From NCBI RefSeq assembly GCF_002834225.1, contig NZ_NNSR01000073.1:124001-188000 (forward strand): a stretch of 64,000 nt of DNA, written 5' to 3'. The position numbers and the translations under genes are program-made. The stretch's first letter is position 1; each line of letters opens with the position of its first letter. This document shows positions 40,078 through 60,390 of this stretch, piece after piece. This DNA is from Ruminococcus bromii (GTDB lineage: Bacteria; Bacillota; Clostridia; Oscillospirales; Acutalibacteraceae). Below the pieces are notes generated by a model. That model was not told where the DNA came from. It did no database searches and saw only the letters and a program-made list of their open reading frames with translations.

Positions 40078-40262
40078 CAATTACAATATTACGCTCGGGC
40101 ATAATATGCTTTTTACATTGCAAACTGTCTACACGAAAGGGGAACGGCGGCTCGCCGTAATTTTCCATTTTCAACTTTCAATTTAAAAAACTTTCGCTCG
40201 GGCGTAATATGTTTTTTAAATTGCAAACTGTCTACACGAAAGGGGAACGGCGGCTCGCCGTA
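40078..40262 (+). repeat. mosaic intergenic repeat, two direct units
   Basis: GCTCGGGC boxes start at 40093 and 40196, 103 bases apart. Both are followed by a TAATATG box, TTGCAAACTGTCTACACGAAAGGGGAACGG and CGGCTCGCCGT. The first unit also has the ACAATTACAATATTAC prefix shared with 35.9 and 53.8 kb. Confidence 0.85.
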
Positions 40263-48955: not shown

Positions 48956-50617
48956 ATGAATAGAAAGTTTGCTAAAAAATTCATTGCTCTTTTTTCGGCT
49001 TCGTGTATGCTTTCAATAGGTACTGTAGCTGTAAATGCTGCTGAAATAGACGATGGCTTTGAGTCGGTAACAAAGAATATGGATTTTTCCGATTCATCTT
49101 TTCCGTCGGCATATTCTGCAATCGGCTGTACGCTTGTTGACGAAAACGGACTTCCGAGTGATTTCAGCTCAAAAAAACTCGGCTTTGTAACACCTATCAA
49201 GTCTCAGCAGTATAATGATTGCTGGGCGGTTGCAGGTACAGAAGGCTTTGAAACAAAGCTTTTGAAGCTTGGATATCCCGTCAATGAGATATCGCATGAC
49301 CACGCAAACGCAAGTTCCACAACCCAGACAAACGGCAAGGGCTGGCAGAGAAAATACCGTGACGGCGGATTTACAAATATTTATCCCGGCTATCTCACCT
49401 CATGGCAGGGCGGTGCAGAGATTGCCGATGTCGGTAAGATTGATTTTTCAAAAAATATTCACGGCGATGATATGACAGCCGACAAGACTAAATACGGCAC
49501 AACAAAGCTGCGTTATCTTGACGGCGTTGATTCAAATGAAATCAAACAGGCAATTATGGATAACGGTGCGGTTACTGCATCATATGCAACAACAAACAGG
49601 TGCTTTAACAATGCAGGCACAACCTACTTTATGCCGCAGTCGTATGACGGCGATTATACAGGCCACACAATCAGCATTGTGGGTTGGAACGATAATTTTA
49701 ACAAATACAAGTTTGCTAACAATACAGGCGTACTGCCCCCAAATAACGGTGCATGGCTTGTGCGCAACAGCTGGGGCGATAACAACACAATGGGCGGTTA
49801 TTTCTGGATTTCATATGAGGATAAGTATATTTTCGGCGAAAAGTATTCTCCTAATTTTACTATTGACGAAGTTGTTGAAATTTCCGATGATATGACCCTG
49901 CTGCAGAATGAACGCTACGGTGCAACCTACAGCTTTAATTATGTTGACAGCAACGACATCACCTTTATCAATTGCTTTGATTTTGATGAAAACAGCCGCA
50001 CACTTAACAATGTGATTTTTGAAACCAAGAGCAACGGTGCTGATTATGAGGTTTACTATATACCTGTTGATAACGGCACGCCTGCGAATGATGAAAGCAA
50101 GTGGAAGCTCATTTCATCGGGTAAGGTTACATACAGCGGCTATCAGTCAGTTGATACAAACGGCTATGTTGCGCCGTTGGGCAGAGGCGCAATCGGCATA
50201 AGAATTATAACTGAATCAGGTGAATCAAGTCAGCTTGGCGTTGGCGAATGGCTTACCAATTCAACAAAAAAGACTTTTATAAATGATTCAAGATACGGCG
50301 ACAGCTACATTAAGTATGACGGCACAACATCAGATTTACTTGATTGGTACAAGCTGAACAATAATGACCTTCTCGGCGGTACCTTTGTCATAAAGGCTGT
50401 TGCACTTGAGAATGACAATATAATGAAAGGCGATACAAATTTTGACAAAGTGATTTCTGTTGTTGATTCAACACTCGTTCAGAAGTATATTATAGGTAAT
50501 ACCGATTTTGACGAAACTCAGATTTATAATGCCGATTATGACGGTGACGGCATAATTACAGTTGCCGATGCAACCGAAATTCAGAAAAAGGTTGTAGGTC
50601 TGCAAAAGTCAAATTAA
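48956..50617 (+). CDS. secreted papain-family (C1) peptidase with C-terminal dockerin
   Basis: 553 residues. A signal peptide (about 1-29, ending VNAA) is followed by a peptidase domain with the catalytic Cys in KSQQYNDCWAVAGTEGFE near residue 91, His in GHTISIVGWND near 236 and Asn in NGAWLVRNSWGDN near 265. A beta-rich region follows (about 300-485). The C-terminal dockerin has two calcium loops, GDTNFDKVISVVDS and ADYDGDGIITVADA (about residues 495-548). Dockerins bind cohesins on scaffoldins, so this protease may sit in a cell-surface multi-enzyme complex. AGGTGATTTT precedes the ATG. Confidence 0.92.
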   Translation: MNRKFAKKFIALFSASCMLSIGTVAVNAAEIDDGFESVTKNMDFSDSSFPSAYSAIGCTLVDENGLPSDFSSKKLGFVTPIKSQQYNDCWAVAGTEGFETKLLKLGYPVNEISHDHANASSTTQTNGKGWQRKYRDGGFTNIYPGYLTSWQGGAEIADVGKIDFSKNIHGDDMTADKTKYGTTKLRYLDGVDSNEIKQAIMDNGAVTASYATTNRCFNNAGTTYFMPQSYDGDYTGHTISIVGWNDNFNKYKFANNTGVLPPNNGAWLVRNSWGDNNTMGGYFWISYEDKYIFGEKYSPNFTIDEVVEISDDMTLLQNERYGATYSFNYVDSNDITFINCFDFDENSRTLNNVIFETKSNGADYEVYYIPVDNGTPANDESKWKLISSGKVTYSGYQSVDTNGYVAPLGRGAIGIRIITESGESSQLGVGEWLTNSTKKTFINDSRYGDSYIKYDGTTSDLLDWYKLNNNDLLGGTFVIKAVALENDNIMKGDTNFDKVISVVDSTLVQKYIIGNTDFDETQIYNADYDGDGIITVADATEIQKKVVGLQKSN

Positions 50618-52451: not shown

Positions 52452-53606
52452 ATGTTTAAATCGGAAAACAATCAGATTACAATAGAACAGATGAGAAAGC
52501 TTGACGAGGAATATACTCTTGTCGATATCCGAGATGAAATTTCGTTTGAATACGGTCACATTGACGGTGCAAAGAATATTCCGCTTGCAAAAATCAAAGG
52601 GGACAATTCACTTTTGCCAAAAGACAAGCTTGTTGTCCTCTGTTGCAAAAGCGGTCAGATAAGTGACGAGCTTGCAGAAAATCTGCGTGATGACGGATTC
52701 AATGCCGTGAATCTTGAGGGCGGTTATTACAGTTGGTTGAGAAGTCAATTCGAGAATGAGGACTATGCAACCGATGTTGAAAAAAGCATCCGCAAAAAGT
52801 TCAGCAAGACGATTTGGAGCAGATTTACTGCGGCGATCATTGAATACAAGCTTGTTGAGCCGAACGATAAAATTGCCGTCTGCATTTCGGGCGGTAAGGA
52901 TTCAATGCTGATGGCAAAGCTTTTTCAGGAGTTGAAAAGGCACAATAAATTTCCGTTTGAGCTTGTTTTTCTTGTAATGGATCCAGGCTACAGCGTTGAA
53001 AATCGTGATGTAATCGAGAGCAACGCCCGCAGGCTGAACATTCCGATAACTGTTTTTGAAACAGATATTTTTAATTCTGTTTACAATGTTGACAAATATC
53101 CCTGCTACCTTTGCGCAAGAATGAGGAGAGGTTATCTCTACAAAAAGGCAAAGCAGCTCGGCTGTAATAAAATCGCACTCGGTCATCACTATGACGATGT
53201 TATAGAAACTATTCTTATGGGTATGCTCTACGGCGGTCAGGTTCAGACGATGATGCCGAAGCTCCACAGCACAAACTATGAGGGAATGGAACTTATCCGT
53301 CCTCTCTACCTCGTTCGTGAGGCTGAAATTAAGCATTGGCGAGATTACAACAAGCTGAATTTCATTCAATGTGCGTGCCGTTTTACGGACACCTGCACAA
53401 CCTGTTCCCCAAACAGCAACACAGGCTCAAAACGACAGGAAATCAAACAGCTTATAGCAAATTTGAAGAAAATCAATCCCCAGATTGAAAGCAACATTTT
53501 CCACAGCGTTGAAAATGTCAACCTCGATACGATCATTTCATATAAACAGGGCGATAATAAAGTTTCGTTTCTGGACAGATATGATGATATGGGGAAGGAC
53601 AAGTAA
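52452..53606 (+). CDS. rhodanese domain fused to a TtcA-type PP-loop sulfurtransferase
   Basis: 384 residues with two domains. Residues 1-100 are a rhodanese domain whose active Cys lies in VVLCCKSGQISDELAENL near residue 63, followed by LEGGYYSWL. Residues 110-384 are a PP-loop ATPase: CISGGKDSMLMAKLFQEL near 139, the YPCYLCARMRRG CxxC near 217, then LGHHYDDVIETILMGMLYGG. A late Cys group CACRFTDTCTTCSPNSN is near 305. TtcA-type enzymes thiolate C32 of tRNA using a 4Fe-4S cluster; a fused rhodanese could hand over persulfide sulfur. Ten bases after the phosphatase gene, so probably co-transcribed. Confidence 0.85.
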   Translation: MFKSENNQITIEQMRKLDEEYTLVDIRDEISFEYGHIDGAKNIPLAKIKGDNSLLPKDKLVVLCCKSGQISDELAENLRDDGFNAVNLEGGYYSWLRSQFENEDYATDVEKSIRKKFSKTIWSRFTAAIIEYKLVEPNDKIAVCISGGKDSMLMAKLFQELKRHNKFPFELVFLVMDPGYSVENRDVIESNARRLNIPITVFETDIFNSVYNVDKYPCYLCARMRRGYLYKKAKQLGCNKIALGHHYDDVIETILMGMLYGGQVQTMMPKLHSTNYEGMELIRPLYLVREAEIKHWRDYNKLNFIQCACRFTDTCTTCSPNSNTGSKRQEIKQLIANLKKINPQIESNIFHSVENVNLDTIISYKQGDNKVSFLDRYDDMGKDK

Positions 53607-57224: not shown

Positions 57225-57645
57225 GGTTGCAATGTTATGCTCGGGAATAATATGTTTTTGATATTTACAAACTATCTACACGAATTGGGTGCAGCGACAC
57301 GCCGTGCGGGAGGATGATATCCGCCCTTACGAAATAACGCTCGGGCATAATATGTTTTTGACATTGCAAACTGTCTTCCCGAATTGGGTACAGCGACACG
57401 CTGCCGACCACAATTTTCCATTTCCCATTTTCAACTTTCAATTTAAAAGTAACGCTCGGGCATAATATGTTTTTGACATTACAAACTGTCTTCCCGAATT
57501 GGGTGCAGCGACACGCTGCCGACCACAATTTTCCATTTTCAATTTTCAACTTTCAATTTAAAATTAACGCTCGGGCATAATATGTTTTTGACATTACAAA
57601 CTGTCTTCACGAATTGGGTGCAGCGACACGCTGCCGGCCGTGCGG
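57225..57645 (+). repeat. four-unit tandem array of the mosaic intergenic repeat
   Basis: GCTCGGG boxes start at 57239, 57339, 57454 and 57569 (periods 100, 115, 115). Each unit continues ATAATATGTTTTTGA, then TT.CAAACT.TCTNC.CGAATTGGGT, CAGCGACACGC. The second and third then have a GCCGACCACAATTTTCCATTTTC tail. No coding frame is supported. Confidence 0.9.
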
Positions 57646-57653
57646 CTTAAGTA

Positions 57654-57682
57654 TTGATTTAGAGGAATTGTTATGCTATAAT
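57654..57682 (+). promoter_or_regulatory. promoter of the racemase/ATP-grasp unit
   Basis: TTGATT at 57654-57659 and a perfect TATAAT at 57677-57682 with 17-base spacing, immediately after the tandem repeat array. Confidence 0.65.
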
Positions 57683-57713
57683 TTTAAAGATACAGTGTAT
57701 TAACGGAGGCTTT

Positions 57714-58901
57714 ATGATGCTGGACTCATATGTTGAAATTGACCTTGACAAAATCGGTGCAAATGCCCGTGCGATAACACAAAAATACAGCGACTACAAA
57801 TATTTTATTGCCGTTCTCAAGGGTGACGGTTACGGTCACGGTATGGAAGTGGCAAATGAAATGTACAAAAACGGTATTAACTATTTTGCCGTGTCCTCTC
57901 TTGAGGAGGCTCAAAGCTTTCGTAAGGTCAACAAGGACGCTCCGCTTTTGTGCCTGCACCCGGTTCATCTTTCGAGAATTGAGGAGGCAAAGCGGCTTAA
58001 TCTCACAATTGCCGTGAATGAGCTTGACTACCTTAAAAGGTTGCTTAATTTGAACATTGACTGCAATTTCAAGGTTCATCTTCAGATTGATACAGGCTTT
58101 AACCGCCTCGGTTTCAAGGATAAGGACGAGGTTAAAACTGCCGTTGATATGATTAACGGTTCAAATTTTGTTCTTGAGGGAATTTATCAGCATTTTGCAA
58201 CAGCCGGAATTTTTGATCCCCATTGGGACGAGCAGGTCAGAAACTTCAAGGAGCTTACATCGCTTATTGATTTGAAGAAAATCCCGATTGTCCATATGGG
58301 CAGTTCCGTTTCAATGCTCACCCACCCGAAACAGCCTTTTACAACAGGCGTGAGAATGGGCATTGCAATCTACGGCTACAATGTTGCCCCCGATTCTCTT
58401 TCAAATTCGCCGAAGGACAGACTCCGCAAAATGCGAAACAATTACTTCATTAAGAAGTACAACATCAGCGAAACATATTTTGATGTAAAGATAGATTTAC
58501 AGCCGGCTATGAAGATGAAAACCCGTATTCTTCAGCTTAAAAAGGTGAACAAGGGTGAGTGGTTCGGCTACAATGCGTCATATACGGCAGATGAGGATAT
58601 TATTCTTGCAATTCTTCCTGTCGGCTACAACAACGGCATCGGTCACGCAAATCACAACAGACAGGTTGTTATCAACGGCAAAAAATATCCTGTTGTCGGT
58701 GAGATGTGTATGAATATGACGGCTGTTAAGGTTGATTCGTCGGTAAAAATTGATGACGAGGTAACACTCCTCGGTGACGGCATAACAGTTGGTATGTTCG
58801 GCAGAAGTTCGGGTATGGGCAATGCCGAGGCGCTTGTGAATATAGGCAAGAACAATCCGAGATTTTATGTAAAAGACGGCAAGGCTGTAAAGGAGAAGTA
58901 A
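57714..58901 (+). CDS. alanine racemase-like PLP enzyme, divergent
   Basis: 395 residues of the alanine racemase fold. The PLP-binding Lys is Lys36 in AVLKGDGYGHG; the catalytic Tyr of the C-terminal domain is probably Tyr286 in WFGYNASYTADED. Residues 123-133 (LQIDTGFNRLG) and HMGSSVS near 194 fit the barrel. Two differences from ordinary Alr: a basic insertion of about 30 residues at 228-258, and GEMCMNM at 329-335, where the usual Cys-Met-Asp has Asn334. A GGAGGCTTT site precedes the ATG. The next gene starts one base after its stop, so the two are coupled. Confidence 0.85.
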   Translation: MMLDSYVEIDLDKIGANARAITQKYSDYKYFIAVLKGDGYGHGMEVANEMYKNGINYFAVSSLEEAQSFRKVNKDAPLLCLHPVHLSRIEEAKRLNLTIAVNELDYLKRLLNLNIDCNFKVHLQIDTGFNRLGFKDKDEVKTAVDMINGSNFVLEGIYQHFATAGIFDPHWDEQVRNFKELTSLIDLKKIPIVHMGSSVSMLTHPKQPFTTGVRMGIAIYGYNVAPDSLSNSPKDRLRKMRNNYFIKKYNISETYFDVKIDLQPAMKMKTRILQLKKVNKGEWFGYNASYTADEDIILAILPVGYNNGIGHANHNRQVVINGKKYPVVGEMCMNMTAVKVDSSVKIDDEVTLLGDGITVGMFGRSSGMGNAEALVNIGKNNPRFYVKDGKAVKEK

Positions 58902-58902
58902 G

Positions 58903-59931
58903 ATGGCAGTTTCGGTACACAAATGGCTTTTGAATAAATTCAGAGATATTAACCACAGCAGAATGGATAAGCACATTGACATTATCGCCAAGAACAGCGG
59001 TAAGTCAAAGGCTTATATCAAGTTCGACATAATCCGCAACTTTCTCATCAGAGGCACAGGTTACACGGACTATTTCCGTTGCGATTTTATCAACCTTTCG
59101 GCTAAAGAGAAAAAAACCTTTGTTACGGCAAAGACTTTCTACAAAATTCTTGAATATCTCAACGATGAGGAATATATCGTTCTTCTTCGTGACAAGCTTG
59201 TTTTTGACGAGCTTTTCAAAAAGTATCTCAAAAGAGATTTCATCAACCTTCGCACAGGCAGTAAGGAAGATTTCAAGAAGTTCCTTGACGGCAGAGAAAC
59301 CGTTTTTGCAAAAGATCCGACAGGCGAGGGCGGTCACGGCATTTCAAAAATCACCGTTGCCGAGGTGAAGGACAGCAACAAGCTTTATGATGAACTCAAG
59401 GCAAACGGCCAGCTTCTTGTTGAGGAGGCAATCGTTCAGAGCGATGACCTCAACGAAATCAATCCGTGCGTTGTAAATTCATGGCGAGTTGTTACGCTCT
59501 ATAAGGACGGCAAGGCACATATAATAAATAACGCTCTCCGTATCAATCAGGACGAGTCGAATGTTATCGGCTGTACAAATGACCTCTACCTCAGCCTTGA
59601 TGCAGACGGCAGAATCGACAGTAATGTAATTGACGACTACGGCAATGTTTATGACAAACACCCGATGACAGGCAAAAAGTTCTCCGAGGTTAAGATTGCA
59701 GGCGTTCGAGAGGCTCTTGACATGGTTGTTGAGGCAGCGGAAAAAATTCCGCAGGTGAGATATATCGGTTGGGATATCGCCTTTTCAAAGAACGGTCCCG
59801 TTATGGTTGAGGGCAACGAGTACCCGGGCTACGGACTTTTGCAGTTCTATAAACTAAAAGGCAAACGCACAGGCCACCTGAAAGAAATCGCCGATGTCCT
59901 CGGTGACGAAATGAATAACATTAAGCTTTGA
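58903..59931 (+). CDS. sugar-transfer-associated-type ATP-grasp protein
   Basis: 342 residues. A helical N-terminus (1-90) is followed by an ATP-grasp domain with the Lys/Gly-rich loop VFAKDPTGEGGHGISK near residue 130. The hinge LLVEEAIVQSDDLNEINPCVVNSWRVVTL is near 170 and the metal-binding end IGWDIAFSKNGPVMVEGNEYPGYGLLQ near 288. This resembles PF14397-type ATP-grasp enzymes often found near polysaccharide genes. ATP-grasp enzymes join a carboxylate to an amine or thiol. Coupling to an alanine-racemase-like gene suggests an amino-acid, perhaps D-Ala, ligation, but the substrate is unknown. AAGGAGAAGTAAG ribosome site. Confidence 0.82.
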   Translation: MAVSVHKWLLNKFRDINHSRMDKHIDIIAKNSGKSKAYIKFDIIRNFLIRGTGYTDYFRCDFINLSAKEKKTFVTAKTFYKILEYLNDEEYIVLLRDKLVFDELFKKYLKRDFINLRTGSKEDFKKFLDGRETVFAKDPTGEGGHGISKITVAEVKDSNKLYDELKANGQLLVEEAIVQSDDLNEINPCVVNSWRVVTLYKDGKAHIINNALRINQDESNVIGCTNDLYLSLDADGRIDSNVIDDYGNVYDKHPMTGKKFSEVKIAGVREALDMVVEAAEKIPQVRYIGWDIAFSKNGPVMVEGNEYPGYGLLQFYKLKGKRTGHLKEIADVLGDEMNNIKL

Positions 59932-59954
59932 CTGTTCAATGAATTTTATAATAA

Positions 59955-60003
59955 GGGGCTGTGAAGAACGGAGTCTTAAACTTCATTTCTTCACAGCCCC
60001 TAA
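59955..60003 (+). terminator. terminator hairpin after the ATP-grasp gene, second copy of the ppdK-end element
   Basis: A perfect 14-bp stem GGGGCTGTGAAGAA/TTCTTCACAGCCCC (59955-59968, 59987-60000). The inner sequence AGTCTTAAACTTCAT is identical to that at 20973-21018. Confidence 0.8.
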
Positions 60004-60273: not shown

Positions 60274-60390
60274 AAACTTTCGCTCGGGCATAATTATGTT
60301 TTTTACATTGCAAACTGTCTTCACGAATTGGGGACGGCGGCTCGCCGTAATTTTCCATTTTCAACTTTCAATTTTAAAAAAACAATAACA
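60274..60390 (+). repeat. mosaic intergenic repeat, single unit
   Basis: GCTCGGGCATAATTATG at 60282, then TTGCAAACTGTCTTCACGAATTGGGGACGG, CGGCTCGCCGT, and the TTTTCCATTTTCAACTTTC tail, matching the 40.1 and 57.3 kb units. Confidence 0.85.

Follow-up and report, generated by a model that had tools for sequence, protein, structure and literature searches.

An alanine-racemase-like gene paired with an ATPgrasp_ST ligase gene in Ruminococcus bromii and its relatives: a candidate D-amino-acid supply-and-ligation module

What does a divergent gene of the alanine racemase (Alr) fold do when it sits one base upstream of a gene for an ATP-grasp ligase? The two genes in question lie in a 64 000-nucleotide (nt) window (the whole stretch of DNA analysed, positions 124 001 to 188 000 of contig NZ_NNSR01000073.1) from an R. 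bromii-like genome of 2.15 Mb that is 99.95% complete. R. bromii breaks down starch in the human colon. The structure of the two genes, their co-inheritance, their intact catalytic residues, a clade-specific remodelling of the racemase and the presence of another alr in the genome are established directly. Substrate, reaction and acceptor are what we infer. The reading we favour, though we hold the odds on it to be even, is that the pair is a dedicated D-amino-acid supply-and-ligation module, likely one that acts on a peptidoglycan precursor.

The pair was followed through a genus sample of 60 genomes that includes its own. An orthologue of the racemase (55–97% identity to that of the window) was found in 14 of them, own genome counted; the ligase family, PF14397, occurs in 41, and close orthologues of the window ligase (65–98%) occur in exactly the 14 that carry the racemase. 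A fifteenth racemase match at E ≤ 1e-30 (G155, 34%) is the canonical alr of that genome. A preliminary description of this DNA, made from the sequence alone, had proposed checking whether the ligase stays linked to the racemase in relatives, and it does: the ligase lies 3′ of the racemase on the same strand in 11/14, with spacings from a 10-nt overlap (G202, where a contig end cuts the ligase) to 211 nt. The other arrangements involve murT and gatD, whose identities were checked by Pfam in G185. G185 and G172 have the racemase on the reverse strand followed by murT-gatD-ligase on the forward strand, leaving racemase and ligase about 2.2 kb apart; in G205 murT-gatD-ligase and the racemase fall on two short contigs.

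The two genes have diverged in step (Mantel r 0.973, 0/5000, 13 pairs) in a set of 12 of the 14 pair genomes plus R. bromii 5AMG, which excludes G202 and G205 as split or partial, and their adjacency persists across near-saturated synonymous divergence. The closest named loci are those of R. bromii 5AMG and two uncultured Ruminococcus (97–98%). Between the window and 5AMG, dN/dS is 0.09 (racemase) and 0.03 (ligase), indicating purifying selection; this and the conserved pairing confirm that the gene pair is real and conserved beyond chance. No close orthologue was found outside the genus, in 150 family genomes or 394 order genomes. The order-level racemase search (E ≤ 1e-34) returned only the own genome, G066 and G212; G212 was rejected because it scores as a canonical alr, and G066 as a distant relative (33%) beside a different ATP-grasp gene.

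The window racemase belongs to the Alr fold by Pfam (PF01168, 164.3 bits; PF00842, 100.9 bits) and by its AlphaFold2 model (mean predicted local distance difference test, pLDDT, 80.5), whose best structural match is Geobacillus Alr (1SFT; Z 36–37, ~28% identity). Its active site was compared across 50 aligned racemases, among them 15 of its own type, here called type I, and 30 other Alr of the genus. Lys36, which binds pyridoxal 5′-phosphate (PLP), the catalytic Tyr286, Arg131 and Arg214 (equivalents of Arg136/Arg219) and His160 are kept in 15/15 type I sequences, and no checked catalytic residue is lost. Around them the site is changed. Two aspartates of other Alr, in the GYADG and CMD motifs, are Asn307 and Asn334 in 15/15, the phosphate-loop Asn is Ser in 15/15 and Lys124 is Gln in 11/15; none of these changes occurs in the 30 others. 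Asn334 had been singled out in the preliminary description, and alignment to Protein Data Bank (PDB) entries places it at Asp313 of Geobacillus Alr and Asp322 of Mycobacterium tuberculosis Alr (MtAlr). Lys124 is the lysine that is usually carbamylated. The basic insertion reported earlier at residues 228–258 is likewise a property of the whole type: between positions 224 and 262 there are 38 residues in 15/15 type I sequences vs 10–12 in the 30 others, that is, 27 extra residues at the junction of the barrel and the C-terminal domain, modelled with low confidence as a helix at 233–248.

In sequence terms, then, type I racemases have an intact catalytic core and a remodelled active site. Altered specificity, in line with the original suggestion that substrate or activity may differ, is a reasonable reading because the signature of Asn334 and the insertion is clade-wide. 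The available text of PMC10288493 calls Asp294 and Asp322 of MtAlr fully conserved in Alr, and describes Asn at the latter site as natural in broad-spectrum racemases (Bsr). Since the equivalents of both aspartates are Asn in 15/15, and since a canonical alr (G000:C74, a 392-aa open reading frame, ORF) turned up elsewhere in the own genome when it was looked for as earlier proposed, we file the window racemase by sequence as an Alr-fold paralogue that is neither a standard Alr nor the housekeeping enzyme. A canonical alr is present in 13/14 pair genomes; none was found in G160, a genome that is 83% complete.

Two families of racemases with other substrates also match the model in fold, BsrV with Z ~32.6 and VanTg with Z 34.1. 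Bsr are periplasmic enzymes with a signal peptide. The window racemase shares with them Asn at the Asp322 position (natural in Bsr according to the accessible part of PMC10288493), but its N-terminus, MLDSYVEIDLDKIG, has no hydrophobic leader. It differs from VanT serine racemases in scoring below the cut-off of their model (NF033131, 200.2 vs 460), and its 395 aa leave no stretch to spare for a membrane domain.

The ligase is a full member of PF14397 (ATPgrasp_ST; 137.2 bits, gathering score 31.4) and the only one in its genome. Both motifs listed in the preliminary description are there and conserved: Lys137 of KDPTGEGGHG, with Glu174 and Asp291, is kept in 70/70 ligase homologues, and Glu303 and Asn305 of VEGNEYPG, residues of the family's metal/ATP site, in 69/70, with one gap. 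ATP-grasp ligases join their substrates via an acyl-phosphate. No Ddl model in Pfam or NCBIfam matches the ligase and neither does a D-aspartate ligase model there, a comparison made at the level of family models. The sequence has no match among PDB chains up to E 1, its predicted model (pLDDT 39) was set aside, and a scan of viral contigs for ATP-grasp relatives with which to deepen the alignment found none. The literature searched, which left most subscription journals outside its scope, yielded no characterised PF14397 member, no use of the phrase 'sugar-transfer associated ATP-grasp' and no account of Alr paired with ATPgrasp_ST, an absence that is therefore unproven.

The same combination is found a second time in the genus. 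Twelve genomes have a type II Alr paralogue that shares ~30% identity with type I, and in 12/12 of them it adjoins another PF14397 ligase, at spacings of 6–82 nt; all 12 retain the canonical alr, and the type II enzymes keep Asp at the Asn334 site. The racemase tree resolves types I and II as distinct clades with full support (type I, 100/100), and the two also separate in a ligase tree made by a quick method, from which L220 and L221 (weak relatives) and L115–L117 and L119 (partial or frame-extended) were excluded and any loci shorter than 270 aa or without a match dropped. Because the types separate in both gene trees, the pairing of Alr with PF14397 has by phylogeny arisen at least twice. 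The genomes carrying the two types are disjoint (0/60 carry both). Mapped on a tree of MurE, type I requires three changes, and the own genome and G182 branch within the type II clade. Since the own lineage nests there and no genome has both, one pair seems to take the place of the other.

A third kind of partner is an EctB-like diaminobutyrate transaminase, encoded upstream of a PF14397 ligase at eight loci, three in the genus and five of 29 in the family (L195, L197, L198 and L012, L019, L024, L028, L035). The one tested scores 583.7 vs 438 with NF006733 and 549 with TIGR02407, just below its cut-off of 552.2; no ectoine operon was seen in the stretches read around these loci. With the type I pair, the type II pair and the EctB-like partner, gene neighbourhoods place the ATPgrasp_ST family as one repeatedly wired to PLP enzymes that make amino acids, and such repeated, independent wiring gives the family a testable function.

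What would the pair do? The racemase would turn an L-amino acid, probably not alanine only, into its D form, and the ligase would activate a carboxylate with ATP and form an amide between the D-amino acid and an envelope precursor. More tentatively, the acceptor might be a peptidoglycan precursor, lipid II or a UDP-MurNAc-peptide, since some members of the clade have the ATP-grasp gene in one operon with murT-gatD, the genes of lipid II amidation (G185, G172, G205; in G188 gatD-murT and the racemase-ligase pair are divergently oriented). The peptidoglycan reading leans on these operons and on a precedent. In the accessible text of PMC4155827, the RacD-AslA/Aslfm operon of Lactococcus lactis and Enterococcus faecium joins a racemase to an ATP-grasp carboxylate-amine ligase and makes a D-aspartate cross-bridge; the D-amino acid is added to the peptidoglycan precursor, and amidotransferases act on the same precursors. 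The window pair resembles it in linking a racemase gene to an ATP-grasp ligase gene, and differs in that the racemase has the PLP-dependent Alr fold instead of being the aspartate racemase RacD, and that the ligase belongs to PF14397. The RacD family is PLP-independent.

A further difference lies in the expected acceptor. The own MurE passes the model for diaminopimelate (DAP) ligases (NF001126, 482 vs 373), fails that for Lys ligases (NF010628, 328 vs 536) and keeps Arg in its motif DNSR. It looks DAP-type by these models, which makes a Lys side chain an unlikely acceptor, and attachment would more probably be to a DAP-type stem, at a free carboxylate or amine. The earlier proposal of attachment to a carboxylate finds no support, an amine acceptor being as likely, and the polysaccharide-gene context suggested for the ligase was not seen beside the window pair or among the neighbours in relatives (murT-gatD, a CofE-like gene, recD2 and comFC). 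No sugar-transfer genes are seen beside the pair, in which it differs from the sugar-transfer association of PF14397 and from the TupA-like family PF14305; PLP enzymes that make amino acids are the partners instead. Taken as a whole, the earlier interpretation is partly supported. The two checks that it had set as refuting, on a lone alr in the genome and on loss of linkage in relatives, both turned out favourably to it. Its remark that no characterised system of exactly this pair is known agrees with our literature search, but RacD-AslA comes close as a functional precedent (PMC4155827, from the text available). A racemase with an ATP-grasp D-amino-acid ligase is an already known kind of system, of which the pair built from Alr and PF14397 would be a new version.

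Several observations weigh against the proposed module or its peptidoglycan acceptor. The window pair stands alone, with its own murT-gatD on another contig (C56). MurT, counted as present at E ≤ 1e-40, is found in only 6/14 pair genomes, against 8/12 type II genomes and 19/34 others, and was rejected as a required partner. The linkage of murT-gatD may be inherited synteny, since murT-gatD also adjoins a recD2-like gene where no pair is near: at L224 of the own genome, and in G206 and G186 (L129, L136), two genomes that carry no pair. A MurE match is present in 56 genomes; the MurE motif was read in 50 of these and is identical in 50/50, so that a MurE specificity varying with pair type was rejected. 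The mutual exclusion of types I and II has a chance probability of p 0.028 with kinship ignored. No tested partner gene was found at 15/31 non-type-I ATPgrasp_ST places in the genus, nor at 23/29 family loci.

In the likeliest of the rival readings the two-step chemistry is the same but yields a small peptide or metabolite, secreted or intracellular, or a surface polymer other than peptidoglycan. The isolation of the window pair, the eight pair genomes in which MurT was not found, several ATPgrasp_ST genes of the genus near unrelated genes and the family's being named for sugar-transfer loci would all suit it. So would the genes upstream of the pair in G160 and G188, which we take from their sequence to be an ATP-binding cassette (ABC) transporter-like permease and ATPase and which therefore leave room for an exported product. 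Against it stand the murT-gatD/ATP-grasp operons in three genomes and murT-gatD beside the pair in G188, and by eye no biosynthetic cluster is evident beside the pair in the listed loci. We regard this reading as possible and on the unlikely side.

A wider form of the proposed module is also tentative, and we would not expect it to hold in full: ATPgrasp_ST proteins in these gut Clostridia might be swappable amino-acid ligases that decorate the DAP-type peptidoglycan precursor in a species-specific way, supplied with a D-amino acid by type I or II Alr (type I with a new specificity) or with diaminobutyrate by EctB. This would be a wall modification not known so far.

It is improbable that the racemase is simply a second alanine racemase giving D-Ala, with the ATP-grasp enzyme using D-Ala or acting independently. 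The protein does pass the alanine racemase equivalog model (TIGR00492, 235.9 bits, cut-off 168), and the five checked residues of the catalytic core are kept throughout type I, but the 27-residue insertion, the two Asp-to-Asn changes, the phosphate-loop Ser and the frequent Gln124 set it apart from canonical Alr, as do its own clade and its conserved pairing with one ATP-grasp gene. That the genes are functionally unrelated neighbours, held together by chance or promoter sharing, is very improbable: they are on opposite strands in G185 and G172, but share an identical phyletic pattern (14/60), stay adjacent over the divergence described above and have a second, independent counterpart. Least credible is a spare alanine racemase tolerant of D-cycloserine, for although the D322N change in MtAlr lowers affinity for the drug 240-fold and type I has Asn there, the same source as far as available (PMC10288493) expects the effect to be smaller in other Alr, the partner ligase has no Ddl model match and type II pairs keep Asp.

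The pair is carried by a named strain, R. bromii 5AMG. If it acts as we suggest, a new D-amino acid in the wall of a commensal could matter for host recognition and for tolerance of lysozyme and antibiotics, and the remodelled Alr is a natural experiment in racemase specificity.

Coordinates of the pair and its signals are listed in Table 1. Both genes described earlier are present, with one base between stop and start. The racemase probably begins at its second ATG (57717), giving 394 aa, because the spacing to GGAGG is better there and the R. bromii 5AMG orthologue begins at that point (MLDSYV). Translational coupling is plausible, since an AAGGAG sits inside the end of the racemase gene shortly before the ligase ATG. 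The consensus promoter of the preliminary description does match 10/12 consensus positions, but the promoter region has 14 promoter-like hits vs 7.7 expected, so that the match alone is weak evidence.

Table 1. Features of the racemase-ligase locus (window coordinates)
Feature	Position	Strand	Basis
Sigma-70-like promoter, TTGATT-17 nt-TATAAT, extended -10 (TGn)	57654..57682	+	Pattern match only
Ribosome-binding site GGAGG, 7 nt 5′ of ATG 57717	57705..57709	+	Sequence
Alr-like PLP racemase of type I, listed with 395 aa	57714..58901	+	ORF, family models, AlphaFold2 model
Codons 228–258, basic insertion, barrel/C-terminal domain junction	58395..58487	+	Alignment, model
Codon Asn307 (Asp in other Alr, GYADG)	58632..58634	+	Alignment
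Codon Asn334 (Asp313 Geobacillus/Asp322 M. tuberculosis)	58713..58715	+	Alignment
AAGGAG within racemase gene, 7 nt 5′ of ATP-grasp start	58890..58895	+	Sequence
ATP-grasp ligase, PF14397, 342 aa	58903..59931	+	ORF, Pfam, alignment
KDPTGEGGHG ATP-binding motif	59311..59340	+	Sequence, alignment
VEGNEYPG motif (Glu303, Asn305)	59806..59829	+	Sequence, alignment
Strong RNA hairpin 3′ of ligase gene, z -6.6, without T run	59954..60001	+	RNA folding

Some other arrangements were met on the way. In G066, which belongs to another genus, the racemase (catalytic Tyr present) adjoins an unrelated ATP-grasp gene and an AsnB homologue. As a general pair of alr with this ATP-grasp type the arrangement was rejected: among 30 loci read, from 60 genomes with a match, alr adjoins only in G066, and an AsnB homologue lies beside or near the ATP-grasp gene in 27/30. 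These family loci (L277–L306) encode a 410-aa ATP-grasp protein like carbamoyl-phosphate synthetase, and 27/30 have one or two asparagine-synthase homologues close by. On a putative viral contig (L226:2174-4098, IMG/VR contig 3300009129) the genes for a TupA-like ATP-grasp protein (PF14305) and an alanine racemase share 4 nt of overlap, a likeness to the window pair.

A CofE-like gene lies upstream of the racemase in seven genomes (L109–L115), adjoining a recD2-like gene; the one of the seven that was tested matches PF01996, the F420 gamma-glutamyl ligase family, with 29.5 bits. Elsewhere in the own genome, outside the window, a DltA-like adenylation protein and a LysA-like fold-III decarboxylase homologue are encoded in a row (L004, G000:C46:2461-5997) with a third gene that we take to be a DltB-like membrane-bound O-acyltransferase (MBOAT); the row could be an operon of dlt type for polymer esterification that has a PLP enzyme of its own.

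Within the window, the neighbours of the pair are presumably trkH and a pyruvate:ferredoxin oxidoreductase gene. Judged from their sequence, we take the ORF at 48956-50617 to encode a papain-like cysteine peptidase with a C-terminal dockerin-like domain, and that at 52452-53606 a rhodanese-like domain fused to a TtcA-like ATPase. The interval between trkH and the racemase holds a 115-bp tandem repeat on the forward strand (57335-57636, 2.6 copies, 96% match), and single related copies, all on the same strand, lie 3′ of the ligase (60302-60322) and at 40112-40132 and 40215-40235.

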